Shown piece after piece: positions 2-28,930 of a stretch of 34,223 bases of DNA. This DNA is from an uncultured Bacteroidales bacterium (GTDB taxonomy: Bacteria > Bacteroidota > Bacteroidia > Bacteroidales > WCHB1-69), in the NCBI GenBank assembly GCA_900319925.1, contig ONQE01000038.1, forward strand, positions 9,752-43,974. Direction: 5' to 3'. Each line of letters starts with the position of its first letter. Position 1 is the first letter of the stretch. The notes under the pieces are model-generated. The model had not been told where the DNA came from and made no database searches. It worked only from the letters and a program-made list of their open reading frames with translations. The position numbers and the translations under genes are program-made.

Positions 2-376
2 ATCTCCACGATTCCCGAGTCGGCCATCGCGGCGGTGAAGGCGCTACGCGGGGTGGACACGCTGATCTTGGGCGGCTTCGACCGCGGCATCGACTACCAA
101 GTGCTCATCGACTTCCTGAAGGAGAACCCCATCCAGAACATCGCTTTCACGGGTCCCGCCGGCCACCGCATGTTGGAAATGTGCCGTGAACAGAACGCCC
201 TCCCGCAAAACTTCATCGAAACCGACGACTACGAAGCCATCGTCCGCTTCTGCTACGAAAAGACTCCCGTCGGCGGCACCGCCCTCCTCTCCCCCGCCGC
301 CGCCAGCTACAACCAGTTCAAGAACTTCGAGGAGAGAGGGGAAACCTTCAAGCAATTAGTAATTAGTAATTGGTAA
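2..376 (+). CDS. murD: UDP-N-acetylmuramoylalanine--D-glutamate ligase, C-terminal part (truncated by window start)
   Basis: Only the last 124 codons are present; the frame is already open at base 2, so the gene starts outside the window. MurD is the cytoplasmic Mur ligase that adds D-glutamate to UDP-MurNAc-L-Ala. The visible part is its C-terminal (domain 3) Rossmann-like region: the stretch TLILGGFDRGIDY matches the conserved LILGG-DRG-D segment of MurD, and LLSPAAASYNQFKNFEERG matches the closing SPA-ASFD-F--FE-RG motif. An internal GTG at 35 is not the true start. The reading frame then runs seven codons into an AT-rich 7-bp tandem repeat (QLVISNW, stop at 374-376), so the last residues are repeat-encoded. 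Family assignment is confident because the SPA...FKNFEERG signature is highly specific. Confidence 0.9.
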   Translation: MSTIPESAIAAVKALRGVDTLILGGFDRGIDYQVLIDFLKENPIQNIAFTGPAGHRMLEMCREQNALPQNFIETDDYEAIVRFCYEKTPVGGTALLSPAAASYNQFKNFEERGETFKQLVISNW

Positions 377-407
377 TTAGCAATTAGCAGTTAGTAGTTA
401 GCAGTTG
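352..407 (+). repeat. Heptamer array, TAATTAG family
   Basis: About eight degenerate 7-bp units (TAATTAG, TAATTGG, CAATTAG, CAGTTAG, TAGTTAG) run without break from inside the 3' end of murD into the gap. It belongs to the window-wide set of 7-bp-period arrays. Confidence 0.85.
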
Positions 408-426: not shown

Positions 427-630
427 TATTATTGAGACATTCTTCCTTGAGCAGTCCCGAAGGGACAAAACGCGCGAAGCGCAAGTAACCCCACACAAGG
501 CGAAGCCGCAGTGTGGGGCCTCGCAAGAGAAACAATCCCACAAGGCGAAGCCGCAGTGTGGGGCCCAATCCCACAAAGCGAAGCCGCAGTATGGGGCCCA
601 ATCCCACAAGGCGAAGCCGCAGTATGGAAC
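427..630 (+). repeat. Modular GAA-triloop hairpin element, copy 1 (four tail units)
   Basis: A head of about 90 bp contains three short hairpins, all closed by a GAA loop: GTCCC-GAA-GGGAC at 454-466, GCGC-GAA-GCGC at 472-482, and an outer stem CCCCACAC (489-496) / GTGTGGGG (511-518) enclosing GGC-GAA-GCC. The last unit is then repeated three more times with small changes (about 531-560, 561-590, 591-630). The same element occurs at 18327-18488 (minus) and 28838-28930 (plus). It ends 20 bp before the thioredoxin start codon and has the same orientation as that gene. The start at TATTATTG (427-434) is set by similarity among the copies. No transposase is associated. Confidence 0.85.
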
Positions 631-1291: not shown

Positions 1292-2140
1292 GTGAAGAAA
1301 ATCTTCCTCATAACGATATGGTTTTTGTTTGTCGTTGCGTGCGCGGACGCGCAGGTGACGGTGGCGGATTCGTTGCCGTCGATCTTCCACCGATGGGAGG
1401 TACGGATGGACGGGCTGCAGGATGACGACCCGGAGATCGTGTCGCTGCATTACCTCTTCCTGCAGGACATCCGCAAGCAGATGGACAAGACTGGGGAGCA
1501 GCTGAACGTCACGCTGGCGAGGAGTCCGAAGACGGACTTCTACGCCGTGAAGCGGGAGTTCCGGCGGCTGACCTTCAAGGCGGAGCAGATGCAGGAACGG
1601 TTGTCCGTGGCCAAGGCGCGGGTCGATCACGACTTCTACCTACGGGCCGTGGAGGAGCTGGCCTACCGCGACACCGTCCGGGCGATGTACAATCTGGAGC
1701 GCGCTTTGCAGTACAACCCGCTCAACCCCGACGCGATGCTGCAGAAGTGCAAGATCCTGCTGGCGCAGGGGCAGTACCAGCCGTGCGTCGATCTCATCCA
1801 CAAGGTCTATACCGAGGCGACTCTCGACGAGGCGCAGGAGAGGGCGGTCTCGGACTTCACCTTGGTGCTCTACGACAAGCTCTACTCGCACGGCAGCACG
1901 CTGGTGAAGAGCGGAAGGTCGGCGGAGGCGTTGGAGGTGTTCCTCGCGTTGGAGCACTTCTGCAACAACATGCCCAGCGGGTACTGCAACGACGACTACT
2001 ACAAGGGCATCGTGCTTTCCCGTGAGGGGGTGTATGAGTCGTACCTCAGCATCGCCCGCGAGGCCGAGAAGCGCGGCAACCACGAGATGTCGCGGAAATT
2101 CTACCAGTACGCCGAGGAGTACCTGCGGAAGAACGAGTGA
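1292..2140 (+). CDS. Secreted TPR-like protein of unknown function
   Basis: 282 residues from a GTG start at 1292, preceded by a purine-rich GGAATGGAGG at 1261-1270. A signal peptide (MKKIFLITIWFLFVVACADAQ) is followed by an alpha-helical protein. Around residues 130-165 the pattern A-YNLERALQYNPLNPDAMLQKCKILLAQGQY resembles one or two tetratricopeptide repeats, and a further helical pair near the C-terminus (GNHEMSRKFYQYAEEYL) has TPR-like spacing. A Cys at position 17 raises the possibility of a lipoprotein, but the lipobox (VVAC) is followed by an AQ that also fits signal peptidase I. I do not recognise the family. The stop codon TGA is itself the first triplet of a TGACTTG/TGATTTG heptamer array. 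Confidence 0.75.
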   Translation: MKKIFLITIWFLFVVACADAQVTVADSLPSIFHRWEVRMDGLQDDDPEIVSLHYLFLQDIRKQMDKTGEQLNVTLARSPKTDFYAVKREFRRLTFKAEQMQERLSVAKARVDHDFYLRAVEELAYRDTVRAMYNLERALQYNPLNPDAMLQKCKILLAQGQYQPCVDLIHKVYTEATLDEAQERAVSDFTLVLYDKLYSHGSTLVKSGRSAEALEVFLALEHFCNNMPSGYCNDDYYKGIVLSREGVYESYLSIAREAEKRGNHEMSRKFYQYAEEYLRKNE

Positions 2141-2275
2141 CTTGTGATTTGTGATTTGTGATTTGTGACTTGTGACTTATGACTTAAGACTTGTGACTTT
2201 CGCGAACCCAACAACCAATAACCAATAACACAATAACCAATAACCAATAACCAATAAACCTTAAACCCAAAAACC
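2138..2275 (+). repeat. Composite heptamer arrays (TGATTTG, then ACCAATA, then AAACCTT)
   Basis: Starting exactly at the TGA stop codon of the preceding gene there are about eight TGATTTG/TGACTTG units to about 2199. After a short spacer come about six ACCAATA units (2210-2258), then AAACCTTAAACCC. All have a 7-bp period. Together they fill most of the 250-bp gap before the kor operon. Confidence 0.85.
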
Positions 2276-2315
2276 AAAACTTATCAACACCCGCCTGTTA
2301 TAACGAAAAAAAGTG

Positions 2316-12609: not shown

Positions 12610-12617
12610 CACCCAAT

Positions 12618-12646
12618 TAATAATTGATAATTCATAATTGATAATT
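12618..12646 (+). repeat. Heptamer array, AATTGAT family
   Basis: Four to five 7-bp units (AATTGAT/AATTCAT) lie between the prfB promoter and its start codon, that is, within the probable 5' leader. Confidence 0.75.
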
Positions 12647-12651
12647 GCCCT

Positions 12652-13735
12652 ATGACCACATCCGATCAGATTAAGGACATCGTAACGAGGCTCGGTGAGC
12701 TAAGGAGGTATCTTTGACGTAGATGCCAAAGAACAGGAAATCAAGCAGAAAGAAGAAATCACGCAACAGGACGGTTTCTGGGACGATCCCAAGGCCGCCG
12801 AGAAACTGCTGAAGGAGATCAGCGGCATCAAAGCATGGGTGGCCGACTACTACAAGGCTGCCGAGCTGAATGATGAGCTGCAGGTCGTCAACGAATTCCA
12901 GCAGTCGGGCGACGCCACCGAGGCGGAGCTGGACGAGGCCTACGCCAAGACGATGGAGGCCGTGGAGAAGCTGGAGTTCAAGAACATGATGCGCGACGAG
13001 GAGGACTCCTTCGACGCCATCCTCAACATCAACTCCGGCGCGGGCGGCACCGAGAGCTGCGACTGGGCCGAGATGCTCCTACGTATGTACATGCGCTGGG
13101 CGGAACGGCACAACTTCTCCGTGAAACTCATTGACCGTCAGGAGGGTGACGTCGCTGGCATCAAGTCCGCGTCCATCGAAATCGGCGGCTCGTACGCCTA
13201 CGGATTCCTCAAGAGCGAGAACGGTGTGCACCGGTTGGTGCGCATCTCGCCGTTCGACTCCGCGGCACGGCGCCACACGTCGTTCGCCTCCGTCTTCGCC
13301 TACCCCGTCATCAACGACGACATCGAGATCGAGGTCAGTCCGGCGGACATCTCGTGGGACACCTACCGCAGCAGCGGTCCGGGCGGTCAGAACGTCAACA
13401 AGGTGGAGACGGCCGTGCGCCTGCACCACCATCCCACGGGCATCATCATCGAGTGCCAGGTGACGCGTTCGCAGTCGCAGAACCGCGAGAAGGCCATGCA
13501 GATGCTGAAGTCGCAGCTCTACCAGATCGAGTTGGAGAAGAAGCGCGAGAAGCTCAACGAGATCGAGAGTTCCAAGAAGCGCATCGAATGGGGCAGCCAG
13601 ATCCGCAGCTACGTGATGCAGCCTTACAAGTTGGTGAAGGACCTGCGCACGCAGTACGAGACCGGCAACGTCAACGCGGTAATGGACGGCGACCTCGACG
13701 GCTTCATCAAGGCGTACCTGATGCAGTTCCATTGA
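12652..13735 (+). CDS. prfB: Peptide chain release factor 2 (with programmed +1 frameshift)
   Basis: The ATG at 12652 opens a 21-codon frame ending CTT TGA at 12712-12717. Shifting +1 at CTT gives Leu-Asp-Val-Asp-Ala and continues to TGA at 13735, 360 residues in total. The class-defining motifs are both present after the shift: the stop-codon reading SPF tripeptide at residues 199-201 and the GGQ peptidyl-tRNA hydrolysis motif at 244-246 ([18 protein letters not shown]). RF2 reads UAA and UGA. The in-frame UGA gives the classical autoregulation: low RF2 lets the ribosome pause and shift. A start at 12839 would lack the N-terminal helical domain and is rejected. Confidence 0.95.
12703..12717 (+). 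promoter_or_regulatory. RF2 programmed +1 frameshift site
   Basis: The internal Shine-Dalgarno AGGAGG (12703-12708), a TAT codon, the slippery CTT (12712-12714) and the in-frame TGA (12715-12717) followed by C reproduce the known bacterial prfB recoding signal, including the three-base gap between SD and CTT. Confidence 0.95.
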
Positions 13736-13788: not shown

Positions 13789-15006
13789 ATGCAAGAGTCT
13801 AAATTACAATCCATCGAACAGGCCATCAAGGATCTGAAGGCCGGGAAGTTCGTCATCCTGGTGGACGACGAGGAACGCGAAAACGAAGGCGATTTCATCA
13901 TCGCCGCCCAACATATTGACGCCGGGAAGGTCAATTTCATGCTTACCCGCGGCCGCGGCGTGCTCTGCGTGCCCATGACCAGCGAACGATGCCGCGAACT
14001 CGACCTCGAAATGCAGGTCTCCAACAACACCTCTATCCACGAGACCCCCTTCACCGTCACCGTGGACCTGCTCGGACACGGCTGCACGACGGGCGTCTCC
14101 ATGCACGACCGCGCCGCCTCCATCAACGCGCTGGCCGACAAATCGATGAAGGCCTCCGACTTCGGCCGCCCGGGACACGTGAACCCCCTGCGCGCACGTG
14201 ACGGCGGCGTGCTGGTACGCGCCGGCCACACCGAAGGCACCGTCGATCTGCTGAAACTCGCCGGTCTCGAACCGGTGGGCGCCCTCATCGAAATCATCAA
14301 CCCCGACGGCACCATGGCCCGCCTGCCCGAGCTGCTGCAAGTGGCCGAGGAGTACGGCATCACCATCACCAGCATCGAGAAGCTCATCGAATACCGCCTG
14401 GAGAAGGAGACCCTTATCCGCCGCGAACAGGAGGTCAACCTGCCCACGCAATGGGGCGATTTCAAGCTGATTGCCTACACGCAGCTCAACAACGGCGCCA
14501 CCCACCTGGCCCTCAAGAAGGGCGAATGGGAGGACGGCGAACCCGTGATGGTGCGCGTGCACTCCTCCTGCGCCACCGGCGACATCTTCGGCTCCTGCAA
14601 GTGCGACTGCGGCGAACAACTCCACCGCGCCATGGAAATGGTCGATAAGGAAGGCAAGGGACTCGTGCTCTACATGAGCCAGGAGGGCCGTGGCATCGGA
14701 CTCATCAACAAGCTGCGGGCCTACCACCTGCAGGAACTCGGCCGCGACACCGTGGAGGCCAACCTCGAACTCGGCTTCAAGGCCGACGAGCGCGACTACG
14801 GCGTGGGGGCGCAGATCCTCCGCGACCTCAAGGCCACCAACGTCCGCCTCATCACCAACAACCCCGCCAAACGCGTCGGCCTCTCCGCCCACGGCATCAC
14901 CATCTCCGAAACCCTGCCCATCATCATCAAACCCAACAAAATCAACGAAGGATACCTGAAGACCAAACAGGCGAAAATGGGACACGATTTGCATTTCGAC
15001 ATTTAA
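13789..15006 (+). CDS. ribBA: Bifunctional 3,4-dihydroxy-2-butanone-4-phosphate synthase / GTP cyclohydrolase II
   Basis: 405 residues, the usual length of the fused enzyme. Residues about 1-205 are the RibB half: [11 protein letters not shown] is the acidic active-site loop and [19 protein letters not shown] holds the catalytic histidine. Residues about 206-400 are the RibA half: HSSC...CKCDCG supplies the zinc ligands in the Cys-x10-Cys-x-Cys pattern, and [16 protein letters not shown] is the GTP-binding/catalytic stretch. Together they feed both branches of riboflavin synthesis from ribulose-5-phosphate and GTP. An additional cysteine sits inside the zinc motif (GSCKCDCG where GS-(L/R)-(K/R)-CDCG is usual). 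No FMN riboswitch fits in the 32-bp leader. Confidence 0.95.
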
Positions 15007-15019
15007 TAAACACGACCGC

Positions 15020-15043
15020 AGGGGCGAATAATTATTCGCCCCT
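15020..15043. repeat. Perfect 24-bp palindrome, AGGGGCG form of the GTAGRGRCG family
   Basis: The half AGGGGCGAATAA is followed by its exact reverse complement. It lies 14 bp after the ribBA stop. Close copies are inside two coding sequences at 19193-19216 and 34071-34098. It may act as a transcript end for ribBA, but it lacks a T tract. Confidence 0.85.
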
Positions 15044-15054
15044 ACCCTCCTCGT

Positions 15055-15103
15055 AACCTATAAACCTTAACCATTAAACCTTAAACCCTAACCCTTAAAC
15101 CTT
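15055..15103 (+). repeat. Heptamer array, AACCTTA/AACCCTT family
   Basis: Degenerate 7-bp units (TAAACCT, TAACCAT, TAAACCC, TAACCCT) fill the leader of lepA and end 5 bp before its start codon. No separate lepA promoter is visible in the gap. Confidence 0.8.
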
Positions 15104-15107
15104 CTAG

Positions 15108-16895
<1,788 letters not shown>

Positions 16896-16948: not shown

Positions 16949-17368
16949 TTACAACGTTCCCTGCTTCAATTTCTCCACATATTCGTCCACCTTCTGCATC
17001 ATCTCCGGAATCCGGATGCGTTGCGGGCAGTGGGAGAGACACTCGCCACAGTTGGTGCAGTGGTCGGCCTGGCGCAGCTTCGGCACGCTGCGGTCGTAAC
17101 CGATGAGGAAAGCCCTCCGCATCTTCTTGTAGTCGCTTTCATCTTGCGACGTAGCCAAATTGCCCTCCTTAATGCACTTATTGTAGTGAGTAAAGATGCC
17201 GGGGATGTCCAACCCGAAGGGACAAGGCATACAATACTGACAGGCGGTACAGGGGATATTCTTCAAATCGTAGATTTCCTCTGCGATGGTTTCGAGAAAG
17301 TTAAGTTCCTCGTTGGTAAGCGGTTTCAGCGGACAGTGCGTAGCGAGGTTGTCGTCCAGATGGTCCAT
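16949..17368 (-). pseudogene. C-terminal 4Fe-4S part of the aldo/keto reductase (out of frame with its N-terminal part)
   Basis: 139 residues from an internal ATG. MDHLDDNLATHCPLKPLTNEEL matches the segment that normally follows the AKR barrel. Two ferredoxin-like motifs follow: CTACQYCMPCPFGLDIPGIF and CTNCGECLSHCPQRIRIPEMM. In the family this tail is fused to the barrel in one polypeptide. Here it lies one frame away from the barrel (17301-18290), with about 25 residues apparently missing at the joint. It is probably not translated on its own unless the shift is a sequence error. Confidence 0.75.
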
Positions 17369-18290
17369 CGCTGCGCTGCGGTTCGCGTTCCTTCATCTCC
17401 GCGACGATGTAGTCGGGCACGTTGGCAAGGCGGCCGCCCAACAACGGCTCCATGATGACAGCCGGTATATTCCTCTTGGCCAGCTCGTTGTAGAGATACT
17501 CAGCCTCCGTGTTAGCCTCATTGATCTCGTTGGCGAAGTGCCAGTCAAGGTAGTTCATCTCAATCTGCACGAAATCCCACTTGTACTCGTCGTGGCGCGA
17601 CAGCAGGTAGTCGAACACCTTGACATCGCCGTGGTAGGAGAATCCGAGGTTGCGGATGACCCCCTCCTCGCGTTTTTGCAGCAGGAAGTCGAGGATGCCG
17701 TTGTCGTAGTAACGCTTGCGGAGCATCTCCATACCGTCCTCGCCCCCGCCCACGCTGTGCAGAAGCAGATAGTCGATATAGTTGGTCTGCAGCTCTTTCA
17801 GCGAGTTCTCGAACATCTTGATGGACTCCTCTCGCGGCCAGGTGCTTGGGGAGAAGTTCGACATCTTGGTGGCGAGATAGTAACTGTCGCGCTTATACCG
17901 TGACAGCGCGATGCCGGTGGCATGCTCGCTGCGTCCCTGGCAATAGACCGGGGCGGTGTCGAAGTAGTTGACACCGTACTCGATGGCCTTGTCCACCAGC
18001 TTGTTAACCATCTCCTGATCGATAGGAGCGGATTTGGCTTCGCGTCCGGAGGCCCCTTTGGGAGCGTCCTTTTCGATGACGGGGAGCCGCATCATGCCGA
18101 AACCCAACAGCGACACCTTGTCGCCGTTTTTAGGGTTCGTGCGATAGGTCATCTGGCCCTTCTGGGGCTTGATGGTACCTTTAGGGTCGAGGTTGCCGAC
18201 CTTGTTCTGGCAGCCGACCATCGTCGCAGCCGTCGCGACCGTGCCGGCACCGAATATTTTGAGGAAATCTCGTCTGGATATGTCTTTCAT
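17301..18290 (-). pseudogene. Tat-exported lipoprotein aldo/keto reductase, N-terminal barrel part (frameshifted)
   Basis: The start ATG at 18290 opens a twin-arginine signal (SRRDFLK, residues 5-11) with a lipobox ending at Cys27 (TMVGC), so the protein should be exported folded and lipidated. The AKR catalytic tetrad is complete: Asp111 and Tyr116 (YFDTAPVY), Lys142 (ATKMS) and His178 (LLLHS). After GGRLANVPDYIVAEMKEREPQRS the reading frame changes to unrelated residues and stops at 17301, while the true continuation is in another frame from 17368. Normally this family has an SVASWAFRF-like helix and a ferredoxin tail here. The gene follows the membrane polyferredoxin gene with the hairpin element in between, which suggests an electron-transfer pair. 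It is a broken gene or an assembly error. Confidence 0.8.
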
Positions 18291-18293
18291 GCT

Positions 18294-18326
18294 GATTACT
18301 TCGTGTTGATTACTTCGTGTTGATTA
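18294..18326 (-). repeat. 14-bp tandem repeat upstream of the aldo/keto reductase
   Basis: GATTACTTCGTGTT (plus-strand reading) occurs twice in tandem, 18294-18307 and 18308-18321, with the start of a third copy. It fills the space between the reductase start codon and the hairpin element. 14 bp is twice the 7-bp period of the other arrays. Confidence 0.8.
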
Positions 18327-18488
18327 GCTCGCTGGGGCCCCATGCTGCGGCTTCATCGTCGCTGGGGCCCCACACTGCGGCTTCGCCTCTTTGGGGCCCC
18401 ACACTGCGGCTTCGCCTTGTGTGGGGTTATTAGCGCTTCGCGCGTCTTGTCCCTTCGGGACTGCTTAAGGAATTATGTTTCATAATAC
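18327..18488 (-). repeat. Modular GAA-triloop hairpin element, copy 2 (three tail units)
   Basis: On the minus strand the order is the same as in copy 1: a TATTATGAAACAT-like start, CCTTAAGCAG, GTCCC-GAA-GGGAC, GCGC-GAA-GCGC, CCCCACAC...GTGTGGGG around GGC-GAA-GCC, then two further tail units, the last degenerate (ATGAAGCCGCAGCATGGGG). It lies between the polyferredoxin stop and the reductase start and is oriented with the reductase. Confidence 0.85.
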
Positions 18489-18525
18489 GAAAGGTTACCG
18501 ATACTAACTGCTAACTGCTAACTAA

Positions 18526-20061
18526 TCACACCGTTCGTTGTTGTTCGACGCCTTCGACGTAGATGGCGGAGAGCGGGCGGGCGGGGCAGACGTACTCGCA
18601 GGCGCCGCAGCCCACGCACTTGCTTTCGTTGACGGCGGGGATGAGCAGATTGGTGGTTTCGTCGCCCTTCAGCGGGACCAGATTGATGGCCTCGGCGGGG
18701 CAATGGCGGGCGCAGTTGCCGCAGGGAATACCGTCGGCCACCACGATGCAGTTCTTGGCCACCCAGTAGGCCTGCCCTTTCTTGGTGACAGCCTTCTCCT
18801 CCTTGAGCAGCTTCTGTATCGCGCCGGTGGGACATACATCGCTGCAGGCGGTGCACTCGGGACGGCACCAGCCGCGCTCGTAGGAGATCTCCGGCTGCAT
18901 CAGGTGCAGCAGGTCGGTGGAGGGACGCAGCACGTCGTTCGGGCACTGCGACACGCAAAGCTGGCAGCCCGTGCAGTGTGTGCGGAAACGGTGGAGCGAA
19001 CCAGCTCCGGCCGGCACGATAGGCGTCTCGCGCTCAGGCACCACCTTGTCCTTGATGGCCGCCAATCCACCGTCAACCGTCTTCTTCTCCTGAGCGAAGG
19101 CAGCGGCACCGAGGGCCACCGCAGAACCGATGAGGAAGGCACGCTTGGAGGTGTCAACGCTTCCGGCGTTGCCGGGTTGTGGGTCACCGGGCAGGGACGA
19201 ATCATTATTCGCCCCTACGGGTGCGGATTTGGTCGTCGCGTGTTTATATTCAATGGCTTCCTTCGGGCAGACCGCCATGCAGTTGCCGCAGGTCACGCAC
19301 CGCGAATAATCCACGAAGCCGTTCTCGCCATCGATGCAGGAGGCCTTGCAATTCTTGGTGCAGAGGCCGCAATGCACGCACTTCTCCTCGTTGATGCGCA
19401 TCTTGAACCAGGAGAACCGGCTGAAGAAGCTCAGGAAGGTGCCCACCGGACAGATGTTGTTGCAGTAGGTGCGGCCGTTGCGCCATGCCAGGATGACGAT
19501 AGCGAGGAACGTCACCGCCGCGATGAGGAAGGTCGGCAGACTCCGCATCCAGACCTCCTTCGAGTAGAAGGCGTAGCTGTTAAAGTGCTCGCTGACGGCG
19601 GCCAACCCGTTGTTGATCCACTGCCAGACAGGGGCGAAGAGGCTCTGCACGATGCGGCCGTAGGCTGAATAGGGAGCGAGGAGCGCAACCAAGGAGCCGA
19701 TGCCCGCGACGAGCGCGACTACGAACACCCCTAAAAAGATGTATCTCAGGATGTTGTGCGCTTTCGAGAAGGTGTAGCGGTTCTTCTTCGCCCAATTGTG
19801 GACGTGCGCCACCCCGTCCTGGAACACGCCGAGCGGACAGATGACGGAACAGTAAACACGCCCGAACAAGAGGGTGATGATCAGCAGGATAGCCACCACC
19901 ACGAAGTTGAGGGCGAGGACGGCAGGCAGTAACTGCACCTTGGCCATCCAGCCGAGGAATCTGTGCAGCGTTCCCGTGAAGTCGAGGAACATCAGCGTGA
20001 TGCCGAGGAAGAAAAGGGCCGCGAGCACCCGCCGGATTCGTTGTAATGTCTTTTTATGCAT
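18526..20061 (-). CDS. Membrane-bound 4Fe-4S polyferredoxin (NapH/CcoG-like)
   Basis: 511 residues. The N-terminal half has about five membrane segments (for example residues 10-30, 45-68, 105-130, 180-200). Two membrane-proximal cluster motifs are YCSVICPLGVFQD and YCNNICPVGTFLSFFSRF, as in NapH-type proteins. Two CxxCxxCxxxC motifs follow (CVHCGLCTKNCKASC, CVTCGNCMAVCP), then a linker, then a second transmembrane/Tat-like stretch (KRAFLIGSAVALGAAAFA). A C-terminal group of clusters comes last (CTGCQLCVSQCP, CTACSDVCP, CGNCARHCP, CVGCGACEYVCP). It is probably an electron conduit at the cytoplasmic membrane, partnered with the adjacent AKR. The linker contains an in-frame palindromic repeat (19193-19216). 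Its TGA stop opens a TGATTAG/TTAGCAG heptamer run (to about 18504). Confidence 0.82.
   Translation of the reverse strand: MHKKTLQRIRRVLAALFFLGITLMFLDFTGTLHRFLGWMAKVQLLPAVLALNFVVVAILLIITLLFGRVYCSVICPLGVFQDGVAHVHNWAKKNRYTFSKAHNILRYIFLGVFVVALVAGIGSLVALLAPYSAYGRIVQSLFAPVWQWINNGLAAVSEHFNSYAFYSKEVWMRSLPTFLIAAVTFLAIVILAWRNGRTYCNNICPVGTFLSFFSRFSWFKMRINEEKCVHCGLCTKNCKASCIDGENGFVDYSRCVTCGNCMAVCPKEAIEYKHATTKSAPVGANNDSSLPGDPQPGNAGSVDTSKRAFLIGSAVALGAAAFAQEKKTVDGGLAAIKDKVVPERETPIVPAGAGSLHRFRTHCTGCQLCVSQCPNDVLRPSTDLLHLMQPEISYERGWCRPECTACSDVCPTGAIQKLLKEEKAVTKKGQAYWVAKNCIVVADGIPCGNCARHCPAEAINLVPLKGDETTNLLIPAVNESKCVGCGACEYVCPARPLSAIYVEGVEQQRTV
19193..19216. repeat. Palindromic repeat inside the polyferredoxin coding sequence
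   Basis: This 24-bp near-palindrome differs at two positions from the perfect copy at 15020-15043. On the coding (minus) strand it is read as GANNDSSL between the second cluster pair and the KRAFLIGSA segment. Confidence 0.85.
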
Positions 20062-20065
20062 TTGA

Positions 20066-20132
20066 GCTTTTATGGGTTAAGGGTTATGGGTTAAGGGTTA
20101 AGGGGTAATGTTTAAGGGGTAAAGGTTATGGG
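20066..20132 (-). repeat. Heptamer array, TAACCCT/TAACCTT family (minus-strand reading)
   Basis: About nine 7-bp units link the TAA stop of the lipoprotein gene (20133-20135) to the start of the polyferredoxin gene. The stop triplet itself begins the array (TAACCCA, TAACCTT...). Confidence 0.85.
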
Positions 20133-20945
20133 TTAATTTGAAGATTGGGAGACGCTGATGTTTGAAAGGGTGAAGCCGCCGTCGTTGTTGAAGGTCACGA
20201 GGGCGGTGATGGCGGGCATGTCATCGTAGTGGAGCACCTTGCCGGTCACGAAGTTCACACCAGGTTGCGCCAGCACAAACAACGAGTCGCCGTTGATGTT
20301 GTAGGAAATCTGTTCACCGAGCCAAACGGCATCGTCGAAGAAGTCTCCCATATCCTTGACTGTATTCGTGACGGTTGCCAACTCGGTCTCCCCGTTATAG
20401 AGGGTGATGTTCTCCCCTTTGACGGAGTACGTCAGCTCCTTTCGGAGGGCTTCCTGTATTTCGTAGGGGTTGATGGTACCGGCAACGTAGTGGGGACCGT
20501 CGTCGCGGAAACCGATCTTGTAGAAGCGTTCCACGTGGGTGCCCGTGCCCTCGACGGAAACTCCGGTAAGCCAGAGTTCACCGGTGGACGCGTTGTAGCG
20601 GGCGGCAGGGGTGTTGCCGTGGCGGATGTCGGCGAAGATGGTGGCGCGGCCATCCTTGGCAATCACGATGCCGAAGCCCTCGGAAGAGGTGACCGAGTCA
20701 CAGCTCACCAGACTCCACACTTGGACATGGTTGACGGTATCGTTGAGAATCATCTCGAAATTCTTGTCAAGGACGTGGCGATCCAGCGTCGCGACGACGA
20801 GTTCAGGGGCTTTGCCCTCATTCACAGGTTCCTCCAACACGCCTTTCACGGGTTTCACTTCTGCTTTTTTCCCTTTGCAGGAGACGGTTATCGCACCGCA
20901 AAGAATCACCAGCGCGACAACGCCAATCCATTTCAAATGTTTCAT
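20133..20945 (-). CDS. Lipoprotein of unknown function
   Basis: 270 residues from ATG 20945 (a GTG two codons earlier is the alternative). MKHLKWIGVVALVILCGAITVSC is a lipoprotein signal with the lipobox TVSC, so the protein should be membrane-anchored on the periplasmic or outer face. The mature part is beta-rich with a short Lys/Glu/Val/Pro linker (KGKKAEVKPVKGVLEEPVNEG) after the lipidated cysteine. I do not recognise a family. A TATTTTTG promoter lies 37 bp upstream on the minus strand, with phased GGCAAG sites behind it. It is probably the first gene of the unit that continues with the polyferredoxin and AKR. Confidence 0.75.
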   Translation of the reverse strand: MKHLKWIGVVALVILCGAITVSCKGKKAEVKPVKGVLEEPVNEGKAPELVVATLDRHVLDKNFEMILNDTVNHVQVWSLVSCDSVTSSEGFGIVIAKDGRATIFADIRHGNTPAARYNASTGELWLTGVSVEGTGTHVERFYKIGFRDDGPHYVAGTINPYEIQEALRKELTYSVKGENITLYNGETELATVTNTVKDMGDFFDDAVWLGEQISYNINGDSLFVLAQPGVNFVTGKVLHYDDMPAITALVTFNNDGGFTLSNISVSQSSN

Positions 20946-21391: not shown

Positions 21392-21411
21392 CACCTCTAA
21401 ACTGTTCTGCC

Positions 21412-21536
21412 CTTAACCCTTAACCCTTAACCCTTAACTCTTAACTCTTAACCCTTAACCCTTAAACCTTAACCCTTAAACCTTAACCCTTAAACCTTAA
21501 ACCCTAAACCCTAAACCCTAACCCTTAAACCTTAAT
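21412..21536 (+). repeat. Long heptamer array, CCCTTAA family
   Basis: About 17 units of CCCTTAA with the variants CTCTTAA and CCTTAAA fill the leader from just after the second promoter to 10 bp before the start codon. TTAA is self-complementary, so TAA appears on both strands. Confidence 0.9.
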
Positions 21537-23293: not shown

Positions 23294-23998
23294 TCAAAAT
23301 GACAGGCTCAGCCCCACCCCACTGGGAGTCGGCCCCACACGCAGCTGCATGGCGGAAGAGGGCGCATTGGCGCCGTCCGCAATTCGGTTCGCGGTGGCTC
23401 TTCCCTTGACGGACAGCACGACAGCGGGCACGATGAAGGCGGTGGTCACCACAGCGCTACCCAAGAAGACGAAGAATCCCGAGAAGGCACTGCGCATAAT
23501 CAATGGTCCCAAATCATCGTGTTCGAGGATTAGGTCCCCGTACTTCGCTGTTTGGACGAAGGCGGCGCAGAACTGATAGAATCCGGTGCCGGCGAAGGCC
23601 GCCGCACCGCCGGCCGCCACGTAGAGCGGGATGCTGACAATCCGGTTGACCTTTGACTTACGCCAGTCGGCATAGTCGGAGGTCGAGAGGAAGGACTCCA
23701 AGTCCGCATCGTTCAGTTGGAACAGCTCGCCGTCACCCGTGAGGTACATGTGGCCACGTTGGAAGTAGAGCTTCCCGATGCCGCGATCCTTCCGGAACGC
23801 GTCCAGGAGCTCCTCCTTGGTCATCAGGGCCGGCTGCGGCAACGAGTCGTAAAGGTAGAGCGTGTCGTAGGTGACCTGTTCCTCGATGATGTAGAGGGTG
23901 TCCTGCGAGGGGCTGTCGCCGTCCACCTGCGCCCAGGCCGACGTGAAGGCGAAGCCCCCCACGAAAACCATTATTAACCTTAACCAATGAGCTTTCAT
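23294..23998 (-). CDS. Exported membrane protein of unknown function
   Basis: 234 residues. A signal peptide (MKAHWLRLIMVFVGGFAFTSAWA) precedes a Thr/Asp/Tyr-rich strand region (QDTLYIIEEQVTYDTLYLYDSLP) and a short helical part. Two hydrophobic segments lie near residues 120-142 (IVSIPLYVAAGGAAAFAGTGFYQF) and 167-194 (IMRSAFSGFFVFLGSAVVTTAFIVPAVVLSV). The C-terminus ends in alternating residues and a final Phe (LRVGPTPSGVGLSLSF), which resembles an outer-membrane strand ending. No family is recognised. It lies downstream of the sigma-factor gene on the same strand, across a 165-bp repeat array. Confidence 0.65.
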   Translation of the reverse strand: MKAHWLRLIMVFVGGFAFTSAWAQVDGDSPSQDTLYIIEEQVTYDTLYLYDSLPQPALMTKEELLDAFRKDRGIGKLYFQRGHMYLTGDGELFQLNDADLESFLSTSDYADWRKSKVNRIVSIPLYVAAGGAAAFAGTGFYQFCAAFVQTAKYGDLILEHDDLGPLIMRSAFSGFFVFLGSAVVTTAFIVPAVVLSVKGRATANRIADGANAPSSAMQLRVGPTPSGVGLSLSF

Positions 23999-24000
23999 AT

Positions 24001-24163
24001 TGATTTGTGATTTGTGACTTGTGATTTGTGATTTGTGACTTGTGAGGTGTGATTTGTGAGGTGTGATTTGTGATTGGTGATTTGTGATTTGTGACTTGTG
24101 AACTGTAAACGGTAAACGGTAAACATTAAACCATAAACCATAAACCTTAACCCTTAAACCATA
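24001..24163 (+). repeat. Composite heptamer array (TGATTTG, then GTAAACG, then CCATAAA/AACCCTT)
   Basis: The whole gap between two minus-strand genes is 7-bp repeats: about 15 TGATTTG/TGACTTG/TGAGGTG units, three GTAAACG units, two CCATAAA units, then CCTTAACCCTTAAA. The order of families matches the array at 25391-25569. Confidence 0.9.
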
Positions 24164-25225
24164 CTACCGATTGGAATCCTTAATCACGACGGTTCGGTTG
24201 TTGTGCCGCAGGACCTTTTTCACCACGACGGGTGGAGGGGCTGCGGCGGAATCGGGTAGGTCGTCGGAGGAGGGTTCGGCTTCGGGATTGCTGGAGGGCG
24301 TGGCGGTTCTGGCCGGGGTCGGCGCAACTGTCTCCACGGAGGTTTCCGGGAGTTCCACCTCGGCCGTAGTGTCGGTGGACGGCGGTGCTGCGATGGCGGC
24401 GGTGGGCACGGAAGGTGGGGCAACGGGCGGCACGGGTTGTGGAGGCCGGAGCATGACCGGGAGCAGCACCGCGCCCACCGCGGCGGTGCCGAGGCCTACG
24501 GCCAAGGGCGCGCGGAAGGCGTGGAAGCGGACCCGCAGGGGAAGTTTCGTGGCGGCCGCGCCCTGGATGTCCGACGCGGCGAGGGGGTGTTGCGGAGGCA
24601 ACCCCAGACCGTCAAGGCGACTGCGGCAATAACGGTCGAAAGCGGCATCTATGCCGAAAAGTGGTGCAAAGAACGTCATAAGCGGTGTGTGTTTATGTTG
24701 TGATTTTTGGAACAAGATGATTTGCAACTCTTTGCGAGCTCGCATGAGGTGTGATTTCGAGGTGTTGGGCGATATGCCGAGCGTCTCGGCAATCTGGCGG
24801 TGGTTGAGACCGTCGAAGACATAGAGGTTGAGGACGGTGCGGTGATGGACGGGGAGCTGTGCGACGGCCTCCAAGATTTCCTCGCGAGTGAAGTCGGCCT
24901 GGCGGATGGCCTCCAGCATGGTCTCGGGCGAGAGGTCCTCGTCCACGTCCGGAAGCACAGACAGATACTGTTCCGTCCTCACCTCCGTCATGCGTCCCTT
25001 CTCCCTGAGGTAGTCCACAGCGGTATTGATGGTGATGCGGGTCAGCCAATGGCCGAAGCTCTCGGTCACGCGGAGCGTGTCCGCACGCTCCATGGCACGC
25101 AGGAAGGCGTCGTGCGCCAAATCCTCGGCCACCTCGCGTTCAGACACATACCGATAGCATATCCCGATCATCTCCGCGATATGCCGCTGGTACTTCCTTG
25201 TCCAAAAAGCGTTCGTCGCATTCAT
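24164..25225 (-). CDS. ECF RNA polymerase sigma factor with membrane-spanning C-terminal extension
   Basis: 353 residues from ATG 25225. The longer frame (to 25297) contains its own promoter and is rejected. Sigma-70 region 2 spans residues about 8-77 (VAEDLAHDAFLRAM...FGHWLTRITINTAVDYLRE). Region 4 spans about 112-170 (AVAQLPVHHRTVLNLYVFDGLNHRQIAETLGISPNTSKSHLMRARKEL). After a 70-residue linker comes one hydrophobic segment (residues 240-259, PLAVGLGTAAVGAVLLPVML). A Pro/Ala/Thr/Glu-rich tail of about 75 residues then ends in KKVLRHNNRTVVIKDSNR. The tail would project into the periplasm and tether the sigma factor to the membrane. No separate anti-sigma gene is nearby. A TATTTTTG promoter on the minus strand at 25247-25254 precedes it. 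Confidence 0.85.
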   Translation of the reverse strand: MNATNAFWTRKYQRHIAEMIGICYRYVSEREVAEDLAHDAFLRAMERADTLRVTESFGHWLTRITINTAVDYLREKGRMTEVRTEQYLSVLPDVDEDLSPETMLEAIRQADFTREEILEAVAQLPVHHRTVLNLYVFDGLNHRQIAETLGISPNTSKSHLMRARKELQIILFQKSQHKHTPLMTFFAPLFGIDAAFDRYCRSRLDGLGLPPQHPLAASDIQGAAATKLPLRVRFHAFRAPLAVGLGTAAVGAVLLPVMLRPPQPVPPVAPPSVPTAAIAAPPSTDTTAEVELPETSVETVAPTPARTATPSSNPEAEPSSDDLPDSAAAPPPVVVKKVLRHNNRTVVIKDSNR

Positions 25226-25246
25226 ACAGTTCACTATTTGCGGGTG

Positions 25247-25254
25247 CAAAAATA
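25247..25254 (-). promoter_or_regulatory. -7 element for the ECF sigma gene
   Basis: On the minus strand TATTTTTG followed by CA lies 22 bp before ATG 25225, which fixes the start choice. The gap behind it (25255-25390) is AT-rich, with no ORF or other site recognised. Confidence 0.6.
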
Positions 25255-25390
25255 ATGTTTCTTTCAACACCGACCATACCGCCCCGTCAGGAAACATCGT
25301 CCTTACATACTATAAGACGCAAAAAAGTGATATGGTTGCAACATGAGTGAATTTTTTTTTGAAAAAAAAGATGAGTAGTATTGTAATGTG

Positions 25391-25569
25391 CTGGTGATTA
25401 GTGAATTGTGACTTGTGACTTATGACTTGTGACTTGTGATTTGTGACTTGTGATTTGTGATTTGTGAGGTGTAAACGGTAAACGGTAAACGGTAAAACCA
25501 TAACCCTTAAACCATAACCCTTAAACCATAACCCTTAAACCATAACCCTTAAACCATAACCCTTAAACC
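25391..25569 (+). repeat. Composite heptamer array (TGATTTG, then GTAAACG, then 14-bp CCATAACCCTTAAA)
   Basis: About twelve TGATTTG/TGACTTG units and three GTAAACG units are followed by five near-perfect copies of the 14-mer CCATAACCCTTAAA. The array runs directly into the umuD stop codon (TAA on the minus strand at 25572-25570). Confidence 0.9.
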
Positions 25570-25989
25570 TTAAACCCTCTTAATCACATACGTCACGATA
25601 CCCCATACCTGGAAGTTGTTCTCTTCGGTGACTTCGATGGGTGGGTAGTCGGGGTTGTGGGGCAGGAGGAAGAGGCGGCCGTTTTCGACGTGGATGCGCT
25701 TGAGGGTGAACTCGCCATCGATGAAGCAGACCGCGATCTGGTCGTTGGAGGGCACCAGCGACTTGTCGATGACCACGATGTCACCGTCTTGGATGCCGAC
25801 ACCCACCATGCTGTCGCCGGTGATGCGGGCGTAGAAGGTCGAGGCTTGGTTCTTGACCACATAGCGATTAAGGTCGAGCACCGGCTCGGCGTAGTCCTCC
25901 GCCGGGGAGGGGAATCCGGCGTGAATACCTTCCACCACGGGAATCTTGTCATGGTGGGAATGCGGGGTGAAAATGTCAAGGTTGGCCAT
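25570..25989 (-). CDS. umuD: UmuD-like S24 self-cleaving SOS protein
   Basis: 139 residues, the same length as E. coli UmuD. The key residues fall on the same numbers as in E. coli: cleavage at Ala24-Gly25 (IHAGFPSP, Cys24-Gly25 in E. coli), Ser60 (TGDSM) and Lys97 (TLKRI). There is no N-terminal helix-turn-helix, which excludes LexA. UmuD, once cleaved through RecA, activates the error-prone polymerase UmuC (Pol V). No umuC follows; the next gene downstream on this strand is the sigma factor. TACATTTG on the minus strand (26014-26007) may be its -7 box and overlaps a palindromic repeat. The last codons run into the heptamer array, whose first TAA is the stop. Confidence 0.9.
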   Translation of the reverse strand: MANLDIFTPHSHHDKIPVVEGIHAGFPSPAEDYAEPVLDLNRYVVKNQASTFYARITGDSMVGVGIQDGDIVVIDKSLVPSNDQIAVCFIDGEFTLKRIHVENGRLFLLPHNPDYPPIEVTEENNFQVWGIVTYVIKRV

Positions 25990-26010
25990 ACTCGGTTCGT
26001 TATTTACAAA

Positions 26011-26040
26011 TGTAGAGACGCGCCATAGCGCGTCTCTACA
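26011..26040. repeat. Palindromic repeat, GTAGRGRCG family (13-bp perfect stem)
   Basis: TGTAGAGACGCGC, a CATA loop and the exact reverse complement. It lies 22 bp upstream of umuD, with a second copy immediately behind it. Confidence 0.85.
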
Positions 26041-26057
26041 ATATTTCGGTTTGTACG

Positions 26058-26082
26058 CAGAGACGTGCCAGGCGCGTCTCTG
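26058..26082. repeat. Palindromic repeat, GTAGRGRCG family (second tandem copy)
   Basis: CAGAGACG...CGTCTCTG with GCC/GGC extending the stem through one T-G wobble. It lies 8 bp downstream of the PorE-like gene's stop and may serve as its transcript end. Confidence 0.8.
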
Positions 26083-26089
26083 TATGGGG

Positions 26090-28606
26090 TTAACGATAAA
26101 GAATCACGTTGCGGGATTTGTCAATCGTGAACTCACCCCACTCCTCGCGGATGTACTGGTCGCCGACCACGATGGCGGCGGGCAGGTTCTTCTTGATGGT
26201 GACCTTCACGTTCTCGGAGTAGTCGTCGCCGATACGCAGTTCCTCGAGGTAGAGGACTGCGCCCTCGATGATGCTACCGTCCTCCTGCTTGATGGCGCCG
26301 GCCTTCTCCTCGAAGTCTTCCAAGCTGATGAAGGACTCTTTCAGGAAGCGGGTGGCATCGGCGTAGTTCATGAGAACCTCCTCACTGTTGTCGCCGATCT
26401 GGAACTGCAGGGATTTGCTGTTGGCGTAGCAGGTACCGTTGACCTTTTCGCCATCGATGGTGACGGGCACGGTGCGCTCTTGGACGACGGCGATGCCAGT
26501 GGGCACCTTCGCGATGGTGTCGTTGGTGGGCACGTAGTCGTCACGCAGGATGGTGAACTCAGTACGACGGTTCAGGGCGTGGGCAGCCTCCTGTTCGGGT
26601 TTCGACGGCAAGGAGTTGATGTAGTCCTCGGTCAGATAAGTGCCCTTGGCGAAGAAGTAACGTTTGCCGTTATAGGTGGAGTACATGTCCTTGTCGAGGC
26701 GGCGCGGCACACGCTCACCGTAGCCTTTCGGCACGATACGGTCGGCGGCGATACCTTTCTCCAAGACGAGGAAGTCCACGCAGCTCTGGGCACGTTTCTG
26801 AGACAGCACATCGTTCTTCTCCTCCGTGTCACGCGCGTCGGTGTGGGAACGGAGCTCAACCACGATGGTCGGGTTCTGTACCATAATATTATATAGGTAC
26901 ATCAAGGAGTCTTGATATTGCGGTTTCAGATCCCATTTGGCCAAATCGTAGAGGATTTCGGGCAGCACGATAGGCTCCTTCGGGATGGGTTCCAGGGTGA
27001 AGTCCTGTTTGAGGTCGGTGTTCTCGGTGAGGCCGACAGTGGTCTGCTTGGCGGTGTTGCCACGCTCCCAATAGCCACTCTTTTTGATCTTGATGTCGTA
27101 TGTGGTGGAGCCGAGAATCTTGGCCTTGTCGAAGTGGTAGTAACCCTTCACGTCCGTGGTGGTCTTGAAGGAGGTGCCGTCGGAACCGACGAGTTCAACC
27201 TCGACGCCGTCCATATACTGACCGTTGTTCTTGTCGCGGACATAGCCGGAGAGCGTGAAGACGATCGGGCGGAGGAGGAAGTAGTAGATGTCGTCGCCGC
27301 CGCGGCCGCCCTGACGGTTTGAGGAGAAGTAGCCCTTCGCGAGGTACGGGGATTTCGACTGCGGGTCGATGGCCTCGTTCTCGTCGAAGATAATGCCGAT
27401 TTCGTCGCCGCAGGAGTTGATGGGAACCATCAGGTTTTCCGGGTCACCAAACGCGCCGTTCTTGTAGTGGGAAACGAAAATATCAAGACCACCCAAACCG
27501 GGATGTCCGTCGGAGGAGAAGTAGAACTCCTCTTCGTTGCGCCAAGCCGGAAACACCTCCTGGCCTTCGGTGTTGATTGTGGGTCCGAGGTTGGTGATAT
27601 TGGTGAACTTGGCCGTCTTCTTGGTACGGGTAGCCGTGTAGAGGTCGTAGCCGCCCTGACCGCCCGGCATGTTGGATGCAAACCAAATCGTAAGTTCATC
27701 GTCGGAGATGAACGGATGGACGTAGTTGTAGGAGGAGTCGCCGAGGTCCACGATCTCGGGTTCACCCCAGGCTTTGCCTTTCTTCATCGACTTATAGATG
27801 TAGCAGCCTTGGACTTTCTTCTTGTCTTGCGGGCATTTGGTGAAGTAGAGCACGGTACCCTTGCGGTTGGCGGAGGCTTCGCCCTCGTTGACGCCGCTGT
27901 TGAGCGTGCCGCCCTCGTCCATGGAGGTCACGGGCGACCACTCGCCGGGCCAGTCGGTGTTCTTGCTCTTGGGCTTGGTGGAGACATAGATGTCGGAGAA
28001 AGCCCCCGTGGTCCATTGGTCGGTGCCCTTGCCGGTTGAGCCCTCGCGGTTGGAGGAGAACATGATGGCGTTACGTTTCTCGTTGTTGGCCCACCGCGGT
28101 GCCCAGTCGTCCTCCTTGGTGTTGAACTTCTTGAGGTTCTCGACCTCGTAGCGGGTGGGGTTCTCGTTCCACATCTTGGCCTTGTTGCAGCCGTCGATGC
28201 GGACATCCACGCGCGGGTCGTCGGAGACGCGTTTCTTATAGTTGTTGTAGTACTTGAGAGCCAGGTCGTAGTCGCCGCGCAGGTTGTAGATGCTGCCCAA
28301 GTGGAAGAGTATCATGGGGTTGTCCTTCTGATAGTTCTTCTTTTCGAGGCGGAGGTACTGTTGCTCTGCTTTCTTGAGGTCGCCCATGATGCGGTAGCAC
28401 TCGGCGATCTGGAAGGTGGCGCGCTGAATCTCCACGCGGTTGGATTTCAGCTTCTTGATGCCCTTCTTGTATTCGTTCAGCGCATTCTCGTACTGACAGT
28501 CGCGGAACAAGTTGTCGGCCGGACGCAGAATGGATTGCGCATACGTGCAGCAAATGCTTGACAATAAGAAGCTTGCGATGATTAAACAGACTTTATATTT
28601 CTTCAT
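26090..28606 (-). CDS. PorE-like OmpA-family protein (TPR, beta-propeller, CRD, OmpA) with extra C-terminal retropepsin-like domain
   Basis: 838 residues from ATG 28606 (MKKYKVCL..., signal peptide ending near YAQ). In order: TPR-like helices (about 25-135), a WD40-like PD40 beta-propeller (about 165-430, with repeats such as IWFASNMPGGQGGYDLYTATR and YFSSDGHPGLGGLDIFVS), a carboxypeptidase-regulatory-like Ig domain (about 449-525, SGYVRDKNNGQYMDGVEVELVG), and an OmpA peptidoglycan-binding domain (about 560-690, VELRSHTDARDTEEKNDVLSQKRAQ). This is the layout of the T9SS component PorE of Porphyromonas gingivalis. Residues about 708-838 add a domain resembling a clan AA aspartic protease, with DNS at 739-741 where DTG is expected. 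No canonical lipobox is seen (SSICC), whereas P. gingivalis PorE is a lipoprotein. It is flanked by T9SS cargo genes. Confidence 0.82.
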   Translation of the reverse strand: MKKYKVCLIIASFLLSSICCTYAQSILRPADNLFRDCQYENALNEYKKGIKKLKSNRVEIQRATFQIAECYRIMGDLKKAEQQYLRLEKKNYQKDNPMILFHLGSIYNLRGDYDLALKYYNNYKKRVSDDPRVDVRIDGCNKAKMWNENPTRYEVENLKKFNTKEDDWAPRWANNEKRNAIMFSSNREGSTGKGTDQWTTGAFSDIYVSTKPKSKNTDWPGEWSPVTSMDEGGTLNSGVNEGEASANRKGTVLYFTKCPQDKKKVQGCYIYKSMKKGKAWGEPEIVDLGDSSYNYVHPFISDDELTIWFASNMPGGQGGYDLYTATRTKKTAKFTNITNLGPTINTEGQEVFPAWRNEEEFYFSSDGHPGLGGLDIFVSHYKNGAFGDPENLMVPINSCGDEIGIIFDENEAIDPQSKSPYLAKGYFSSNRQGGRGGDDIYYFLLRPIVFTLSGYVRDKNNGQYMDGVEVELVGSDGTSFKTTTDVKGYYHFDKAKILGSTTYDIKIKKSGYWERGNTAKQTTVGLTENTDLKQDFTLEPIPKEPIVLPEILYDLAKWDLKPQYQDSLMYLYNIMVQNPTIVVELRSHTDARDTEEKNDVLSQKRAQSCVDFLVLEKGIAADRIVPKGYGERVPRRLDKDMYSTYNGKRYFFAKGTYLTEDYINSLPSKPEQEAAHALNRRTEFTILRDDYVPTNDTIAKVPTGIAVVQERTVPVTIDGEKVNGTCYANSKSLQFQIGDNSEEVLMNYADATRFLKESFISLEDFEEKAGAIKQEDGSIIEGAVLYLEELRIGDDYSENVKVTIKKNLPAAIVVGDQYIREEWGEFTIDKSRNVILYR

Positions 28607-28837
28607 TTTACAACAATTTTCCCAATAAAATTTAAGGCGGCTAAAATACAAAAAAAATAAAAACGACCGACGTGAATTTTTTTTCTTTTCGATGTAACGA
28701 AATCGGGGGGACGTGCGACAAAGGCGGATGTGAGGGGGAGACGGTTAAGGGTTAAGGGTTAAGGGTTAAGGGTTAAAGGTTAAAGGTTAAGGGTTAAGGG
28801 TTAATGGATAATTAAGAATGATGTACGTTGTACCCTA
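28607..28837. other. Divergent gap with heptamer array
   Basis: Upstream of the PorE-like gene is an A/T-rich stretch (28608-28690) whose minus-strand TATTTTAG is a weak -7 candidate. 28741-28805 holds about nine units of TTAAGGG/TTAAAGG (CCCTTAA on the minus strand). The hairpin element, copy 3, begins at 28838. No ORF of note was seen. Confidence 0.7.
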
Positions 28838-28930
28838 GATATGTTGAACATCTTCCTTAAGCAGCCCTGGAGGGGCAAGACGCGCGAAGCGCTAATAACC
28901 CCACATAAGGCGAAGCCGCAGTGTGGGGCC
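28838..28930 (+). repeat. Modular GAA-triloop hairpin element, copy 3 (one tail unit)
   Basis: Same order as the other copies: ATGTTGAACAT start, CCTTAAGCAG, GCCCT-GGA-GGGGC (changed but still pairing), GCGC-GAA-GCGC, then CCCCACAT...GTGTGGGG around GGC-GAA-GCC. It ends 31 bp before the start codon at 28962, again in the gene's orientation. Confidence 0.85.

Follow-up and report, generated by a model that had tools for sequence, protein, structure and literature searches.

Heptanucleotide satellite arrays in spacers of an uncultured Bacteroidales bacterium and the relation of their orientation to gene edges

STRR sequences of heterocystous cyanobacteria are heptanucleotide repeats, several 7-bp units of which are carried by one genome, and units of the CCCCRAT type are among them. 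Long simple sequence repeats (SSRs) were surveyed by Mrazek in 2007 and, as the survey is cited in two later papers (PMC4679880, PMC4692102), heptanucleotides are the most abundant class among units of 5-11 nt in most repeat-rich genomes and polymerase slippage was proposed for the heptanucleotide step; the gene-edge geometry and the spread of units between loci described below do not figure in those citing passages. G-rich heptamers are known in Xanthomonas (GGGAATC) and Nostoc (GGGGAYT), where, in the passages concerned, they are dispersed, mostly intergenic and, located between the same genes, of a length that varies among relatives, and where their polarity is discussed via the quadruplexes that the units form (PMC4692102). 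Convergent pairs occur in Xanthomonas and few paired arrays in Nostoc, and a Calothrix example of STRR heptanucleotides is cited in the same paper (PMC4692102). In addition, TAACTGA direct repeats are described in marine Beggiatoaceae, cyanobacteria and five Bacteroidetes (PMC4679880). According to the relevant parts of that paper, they are intergenic heptamers which in the BOGUAY genome lie mostly in one orientation just 5' of start codons, which in F. litoralis include one set directly after the stop in reverse orientation, and which differ by 7-nt indels between Cyanothece strains; unlike the arrays below, they have a single favoured unit, in 2-6 copies in BOGUAY and up to 43 elsewhere. Why 7 is favoured as the long repeat unit in bacteria is still called unexplained in the passages that treat the question (PMC4679880, PMC4692102).

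The present analysis deals with a window of 34,223 nucleotides, which means the whole stretch of DNA that was analysed (GenBank assembly GCA_900319925.1, contig ONQE01000038.1, positions 9,752 to 43,974), with its source genome and with relatives; heptanucleotide satellite arrays constitute much of the spacer DNA. The source genome (G000; 3,120,163 bases, 252 contigs, 86.8% complete) was analysed as stretches. A sample taken without picking for repeats consists of the window and 20 contig heads (199.5 kb, or 209 kb with the stretch L105 added), while the larger sample of 568 kb is biased towards arrays, because 13 of the 20 stretches added to it were picked for a listed GTGACTT match, as were several further stretches outside those 20. 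The congener sample comprises 920 kb from array-clade genomes of the same genus. One genome per species was used, and all comparisons of relatives are between species. Genes were called by our own codon-model script, so gene starts are approximate; tandem repeats in the window were located by TRF, and block-shuffled sequence was the control for lag counts. An assembly artefact is unlikely, because metagenome-assembled genomes (MAGs) from different projects and hosts show the same pattern. An Rfam search of the window gave a single match, a tRNA.

The 7-bp arrays listed in an earlier, sequence-only reading of the window are all found by TRF, at the same positions or a few bases off. An array at 354..406 (+) overlaps the end of a MurD-like gene (2-376) by 23 bp and reads AATTAGC, then AGTTAGT and AGTTAGC; by eye it belongs with the AGTTAGY family, although the consensus-based family counts assign it to GTGAYTT by a distance tie. 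One spacer carries two arms, a GTGACTT/GTGATTT array at 2137..2199 (+), which begins at the TGA stop of the gene 1292-2140, and a CCAATAA array of the TTAARCC type at 2208..2279 (+; 2208-2257 by TRF), that is, the G arm and then the C arm. A TTGATAA array at 12615..12647 (+) ends 4 bases 5' of the ATG at 12652, which is probably the true start of prfB, the mechanical open reading frame (ORF) beginning later. In the stretch 12652-12839 a CTTTGAC frameshift-like site follows AGGAGGT, and the same stretch, which we take to resemble the autoregulatory frameshift site of release factor 2, occurs in congeners. A TTAAACC array at 15055..15103 (+) likewise ends 4 bases 5' of a start, that of lepA (15108), and the orthologous spacers of congeners have other heptamers or none.

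On the minus strand, an AGTTAGC array at 18504..18523 begins 2 bases past the stop of the minus-strand gene 18526-20061; this is the repeat listed earlier as CTAACTG, read on the opposite strand. The overlapping minus-strand ORFs 16949-17368 and 17301-18290, an aldo/keto reductase and a cysteine-rich ferredoxin-like end (the latter by eye), have the appearance of a single gene interrupted by a frameshift. A TTAAGGG array (20070..20136 in TRF extent, +) fills the spacer between two minus-strand genes, and 18 copies of CCCTTAA at 21410..21535 (+) end 11 bases 5' of the start of an M20-type dipeptidase gene (21547). In a GTGATTT arm at 24001..24101 (+) the G-rich strand points away from the start of the gene 23294-23998 (minus), and the arm at 24101..24160 (+), GTAAACG and then TAAACCT, adjoins the stop of an ECF sigma factor-like gene (24164-25297, minus); 24001-24160 thus sits between two minus-strand genes, yet the order is still GTGATTT and then TAAACC. 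The arm at 25387..25496 (+) is GTGAYTT and then GTAAACG, and it is followed at 25495..25578 (+) by 5.9 copies of CCATAACCCTTAAA, which overlap the stop of a UmuD-like gene (25570-25989, minus). This gene lies between an ECF sigma-type and an OmpA-type gene and has no adjacent UmuC polymerase. Finally, a GGTTAAG array at 28743..28812 (+; 28743-28804 by TRF) occupies a divergent spacer and is flush with neither gene.

The excess of period 7 proposed from the window extends over the genome. In 209 kb there are 33 non-coding lag-7 arrays versus 0-4 at each of the other lags from 2 to 13, and block-shuffled sequence gives 0; by proportion, the whole genome would hold roughly 490. Non-coding runs of at least 12 matches in the 199.5 kb number 30, 32, 26 and 23 at lags 7, 14, 21 and 28; lags from 1 to 20 outside the multiples of 7 have no more than 3 each, and 6 runs fall at lag 22. 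A genome-wide distribution without an excess at 7, named beforehand as the result that would count against the idea, was thus not what was found. The further statement that the many microsatellites of the window all have a period of 7 (or 14) bp holds for the simple intergenic arrays and fails for the window as a whole, which also has dispersed elements of period 29 and 33 and short repeats of 9-12 bp. Of the two 14-mers taken as heptamer cases, CCATAACCCTTAAA is a doubled heptamer (14 = 2 x 7), while TGATTACTTCGTGT (18293-18326, 2.4 copies) is no example of the heptamer period, because it is a true 14-mer with two unlike halves. In the congeners 7 is dominant and not exclusive: non-coding arrays of periods 6 to 13 number 18, 177, 30, 7, 4, 4, 16 and 4, respectively, those of period 12 being partly doubled 6. 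Only 1 of 113 arrays in G000 and 5 of 182 in the congeners lie inside called genes, so their location is intergenic. The excess of period 7, this location and copy-number variation in steps of 7 are features shared with bacterial heptanucleotide repeats (long SSR, STRR-like). The likeness to the STRR of heterocystous cyanobacteria seen in the sequence-only reading stands for form and not for unit sequence, the CCCCRAT type occurring once in the G000 sample (L122).

The units, which had been called unrelated, are related and spread within the genome. The 113 arrays in 568 kb of G000 use just 27 canonical units in about four families; under independent seeding 104.6 distinct units are expected for 112 arrays, 84 of which are made of six units. 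All but 3 of the 113 are within one substitution of 17 reference variants of the GTGAYTT, AGTTAGY and TTAARCC families, TTGATAA being a small fourth family with two arrays, and GTAAACG, TAACCCT and ACCAATA group together. The units differ from one another by scattered substitutions. TAACTGA is absent from the 27 canonical units of the G000 sample, the nearest, CTAACTG, being one base off. A GGG run is present in the unit of 21 of the 113 arrays, and the other 92 lack this G-tract of quadruplex-forming heptamers. Concerning structure, the units are near neutral (mean rank 0.49-0.61), with no marked tendency towards folding or against it. Stop codons occur on both strands of AGTTAGY, whereas the reversed GTGAYTT unit has none.

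The orientation of the arrays is related to gene edges. Among the 78 arrays of G000 that are flush on one side only, 74 have the G-richer strand directed away from the gene (46/49 at stops, 28/29 at starts). The other 35 arrays consist of 5 that are flush at both ends, 29 that are flush at no end and 1 within a gene; in the part of the sample without repeat picking the outward count is 22 of 23. In the congeners it is 92 of 113 (65/78 at stops, 27/35 at starts), and the remaining arrays are flush on both sides (19), on neither (45) or inside a gene (5). The rule is weaker at starts, where outward and inward arrays number 27 and 8 in the congeners, 6 and 7 in G020 alone and 5 and 4 in distant families. 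Array-free edges provide the control: 196 stops show no G-out bias (76 G-out versus 99 C-out) and 249 starts are 134 G-out versus 93 C-out, so that array edges differ from them with Fisher p values of 3e-11 at stops and 2e-5 at starts. Background composition as the cause of orientation is accordingly rejected at stops and could act in part at starts, where leader composition may be an explanation.

The single families show the same geometry. Of the 19 AGTTAGY arrays that have a sense stop as their 5' neighbour, 17 are at most 15 bp away from it, whereas on the 3' side none of 22 comes that near. For GTGAYTT arrays, a sense stop is at most 15 bp away in 18 of 21 cases and an antisense start in 8 of 17, with 3 of 38 flush on the 3' side; for TTAARCC arrays, a start on the 3' side is that near in 24 of 34 cases and an antisense stop in 7 of 9, with 4 of 43 flush on the 5' side. 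The stop-codon content explains part of the GTGAYTT orientation after genes, because the reversed unit lacks stops. In spacers with arrays of both signs, the G arm precedes the C arm in 56 of 57 (25/25 in G000, 31/32 in congeners), an order which is independent of gene direction, since its reverse complement again reads G and then C.

Downstream arrays mostly begin on the stop codon, in register. At 48 stop edges of G000 the array consensus is matched in phase at 0.40-0.56 over the six bases that precede the stop, at 0.75, 0.69 and 0.77 on the three bases of the stop codon and at 0.83 or higher past it; at 63 congener stop edges the values are 0.32-0.56, 0.60-0.68 and at least 0.79, respectively. 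At start edges (30 in G000, 37 in congeners) the match rises some 3-8 bases 5' of the ATG. Furthermore, TAG stops accompany AGTTAGY arrays in 11 of 18 cases versus 93 of 356 genes (p 0.003) and TGA stops accompany GTGAYTT arrays in 10 of 20 versus 69 of 356 (p 0.003), in counts that kept arrays more than one substitution away from any family. The array could simply be supplying the stop; TAG precedes 8 of the 20 stop-flanking GTGAYTT arrays.

Lengths differ in steps of seven. The sequence-only reading had looked to strains for such differences; between species, of the distinct indels scored in a strict count, 13 of 20 within lag-7 context and 2 of 25 elsewhere have a length divisible by 7 (Fisher p 8e-5). 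This count replaced a first one based on loose alignment, which was too noisy (23 of about 83 lag-7-context gaps were multiples of 7). Whole spacers, in some cases together with the stop codon, are replaced by arrays as well. In ten congeners whose proteins are 95-98% identical, the ribBA-lepA spacer, identical to one another in three of the ten, contains different heptamers or a palindrome instead. A comparison of seven congeners gave 32 orthologous spacers shared by two or more of them; an array is present in one or more species in 16 of these, and some are replaced from stop to stop. Arrays and stop codons at one and the same gene end differ between species. Where a single member of a gene pair has a flush array (72 non-independent comparisons), the protein ends agree in 49, whereas the protein on the array side is the shorter one in 20 and the longer one in 3. 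The ends are unchanged in 28 of 28 pairs with arrays on both sides and in 117 of 161 with none, these controls being non-independent as well. Spacers, stop codons and 5' leaders can thus be rewritten wholesale between close species.

Concerning distribution, GTGACTT triplets with at most 2 mismatches give 406 overlapping matches in G000 and are present in 11 of 39 other genomes searched, all 11 being congeners. None of the triplet-bearing genomes matches the reversed control pattern, but two genomes from other families have 3 matches and 1 match to it. A lag-7 run is found in lepA-centred stretches of 7 of 10 array-clade congeners (lepA 96-98% identical) and of 2 of 10 other, array-poor congeners, and is missing from the lepA-centred stretches (5-40 kb each) of 13 of 14 genomes of other families. 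The close relatives are MAGs of uncultured Bacteroidales or Bacteroidetes from sources including sheep rumen, goat omasum and reindeer. At greater distance (at most 67% identity), 38 loci from relatives including Muribaculaceae, Prevotellaceae and Dysgonamonadaceae have 42 lag-7 arrays versus 1, 2 and 5 at lags 6, 8 and 9, with different units such as AAACTCT, while the intermediate groups (71-82% identity) are poor, with 2 lag-7 arrays in one set of 7 loci and 11 in another of 22. The dominance of heptamers thus reaches beyond the genus, although in a patchy manner, and the units are local. At the 22 loci of 71-77% identity there are 8 lag-8 arrays, and the favoured period may shift between lineages, because 8-bp arrays are nearly as common there as 7-bp ones.

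The sequence-only reading had implied a common process, and one dominant period, one orientation relative to genes, length changes of 7n and few units at many loci support it. The best account that we can give, at a probability of about 0.4, is DNA synthesis, by slippage or template switching, that starts from 3' ends at the edges of genes. A spacer would be broken or gapped and a free 3' end at or near the gene edge extended outward; this end might pair through a few bases, for example those of a TGA, TAG or TAA stop, with a heptamer array elsewhere and copy it, and the copy would lengthen by slipped synthesis in 7-base steps set by a replication or repair polymerase. Two extended ends that meet would give the order of G arm and C arm. 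Events entering genes would be removed by selection, stop-rich units would terminate the frame at the ends of genes and leaders poor in G would be tolerated before starts, with no need for a host function of the arrays. Dispersal, register and the junction of G with C arms would all follow from the copying of another array, started from a 3' end at the edge of a gene. The strongest competitor, which we consider possible though somewhat doubtful, is replication slippage in place with a 7-base step, the units being alike by convergence and oriented only by selection at stops and starts. Simple slippage had been said not to favour one period, but slippage is the published proposal (credited to Mrazek 2007 in the citing passages of PMC4679880 and PMC4692102), and the congener periods scatter around 7, as an intrinsic step size would give. 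The 7n indels and the dominance of heptamers with quite different units in other Bacteroidales families also favour it. Set against this are the 27 distinct units, compared with about 105 under independent seeding, the stop-flush AGTTAGY arrays, 17 in one orientation and 0 in the other, and the array-free stops without a G-out bias. For the sharing of units, and for the outward direction of AGTTAGY with its stops on both strands, slippage in place gives by itself no explanation.

Selection of the arrays as RNA or DNA elements, namely translation or termination signals, protein-binding sites or two-arm hairpins, appears unlikely. Arrays adjoin starts and stops, such a role was suggested for the TAACTGA repeats (PMC4679880, in the part concerned), and two-arm spacers resemble inverted repeats; however, unit, length and presence vary at the same gene between close species, and units are near neutral in structure. 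Pairing of the two arms as hairpin or terminator was examined by permutation, which speaks against it in G000, where 189 of 200 permuted pairings fold as low as or lower than the true arm pairs, and gives weak support in clade A, where true pairs fold slightly better (16/200 as low). In the window, 24001-24163 has a fold z of +1.05, and the minus strand of 25387-25569 a z of -1.71, with 8 of 200 shuffles as low. Carriage of the arrays by dispersed palindromic (REP-like) elements is less probable still. A CCTTGAGCAGYCC-like site (at most 2 mismatches) lies outward of 9 of 25 AGTTAGY arrays in G000, the reverse site never, and of 3 of 15 in congeners; some matches to the pattern fall in genes, and such elements cannot explain most arrays, because only 1 of 41 GTGAYTT and 2 of 44 TTAARCC arrays in G000 have the site. 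Y1 transposases, which would suit these elements, are uninformative as a cause, because they are present in 25 of 25 genomes. The least probable of all, in our judgement very improbable, is a telomerase-like or other dedicated templated enzyme that adds heptamers to DNA ends. The outward 5' to 3' course of the G-rich strand at either gene edge, the few units per genome and the dominant fixed period would fit it. The dedicated reverse transcriptase that the sequence-only reading had suggested seeking did not emerge as a single fitting enzyme: RVT_1 occurs in 9 of 25 genomes searched and, within the genus, in 5 of 10 array-clade genomes versus 0 of 6 array-poor congeners searched, but it is missing in the array-bearing drafts G012 (94% complete) and G013 (97%) and in the drafts G003, G007 and G010, and the G000 match covers only part of the domain. 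A reverse transcriptase common to array-bearing genomes was thus not found; it is not required, yet by the 5/10 versus 0/6 not wholly unrelated. Periods 6 and 8 coexisting in congeners and the scattered substitutions between units also stand against a templated enzyme.

The same orientation relative to genes as in 74 of 78 arrays here is reported for the Xanthomonas and Nostoc heptamers (PMC4692102, in the passages on polarity), and both this and the heptamer excess in bacteria are therefore already published. The present analysis adds the outward rule for units without G-tracts, the array-free controls, the stop-codon register, the arm order and the replacement between species; no paper stating a gene-edge orientation rule for Bacteroidales was found in our literature searches. 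An orientation that is tied to gene edges and not to transcription direction, that holds across units and that agrees with published data for two other phyla limits the mechanisms to be considered. It speaks against quadruplexes as a cause, which are not needed since the orientation is the same with a GGG run in only 21 of 113 arrays, and against purely local slippage, and it suggests that DNA is synthesized from ends lying at gene boundaries. It is conceivable, although we would rate it as a long shot, that bacterial heptamer arrays in general are scars of a conserved DNA-end process in which 3' ends at gene boundaries would be extended outward in 7-base G-richer units, telomere-like, and then joined, spacers being rebuilt repeatedly with the same polarity in Bacteroidota, Xanthomonas and Nostoc whatever the unit. 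Ku end joining was rejected; any joining would be Ku-independent, because Ku is absent from 25 of 25 genomes.

A dispersed palindrome-rich element composed of CCCGAAGGG..ACGCGCGAAGCGC and then CCCCACACAAGGCGAAGCCGCAGTGTGGGG has three copies in the window, at 456-482 (+), 18433-18459 (-) and 28866-28892 (+), and related copies elsewhere in the genome, and its CCTTGAGCAGYCC-like part follows 9 of 25 AGTTAGY arrays, in one orientation. Moreover, palindromes of the types GTAGAGACGCG...CGCGTCTCTAC and GTAGGGGCG...CGCCCCTAC are found in the window (25989-26090, 15006-15108) and in L072, L083 and L084, and in relatives they swap with heptamer arrays at the same spacer.
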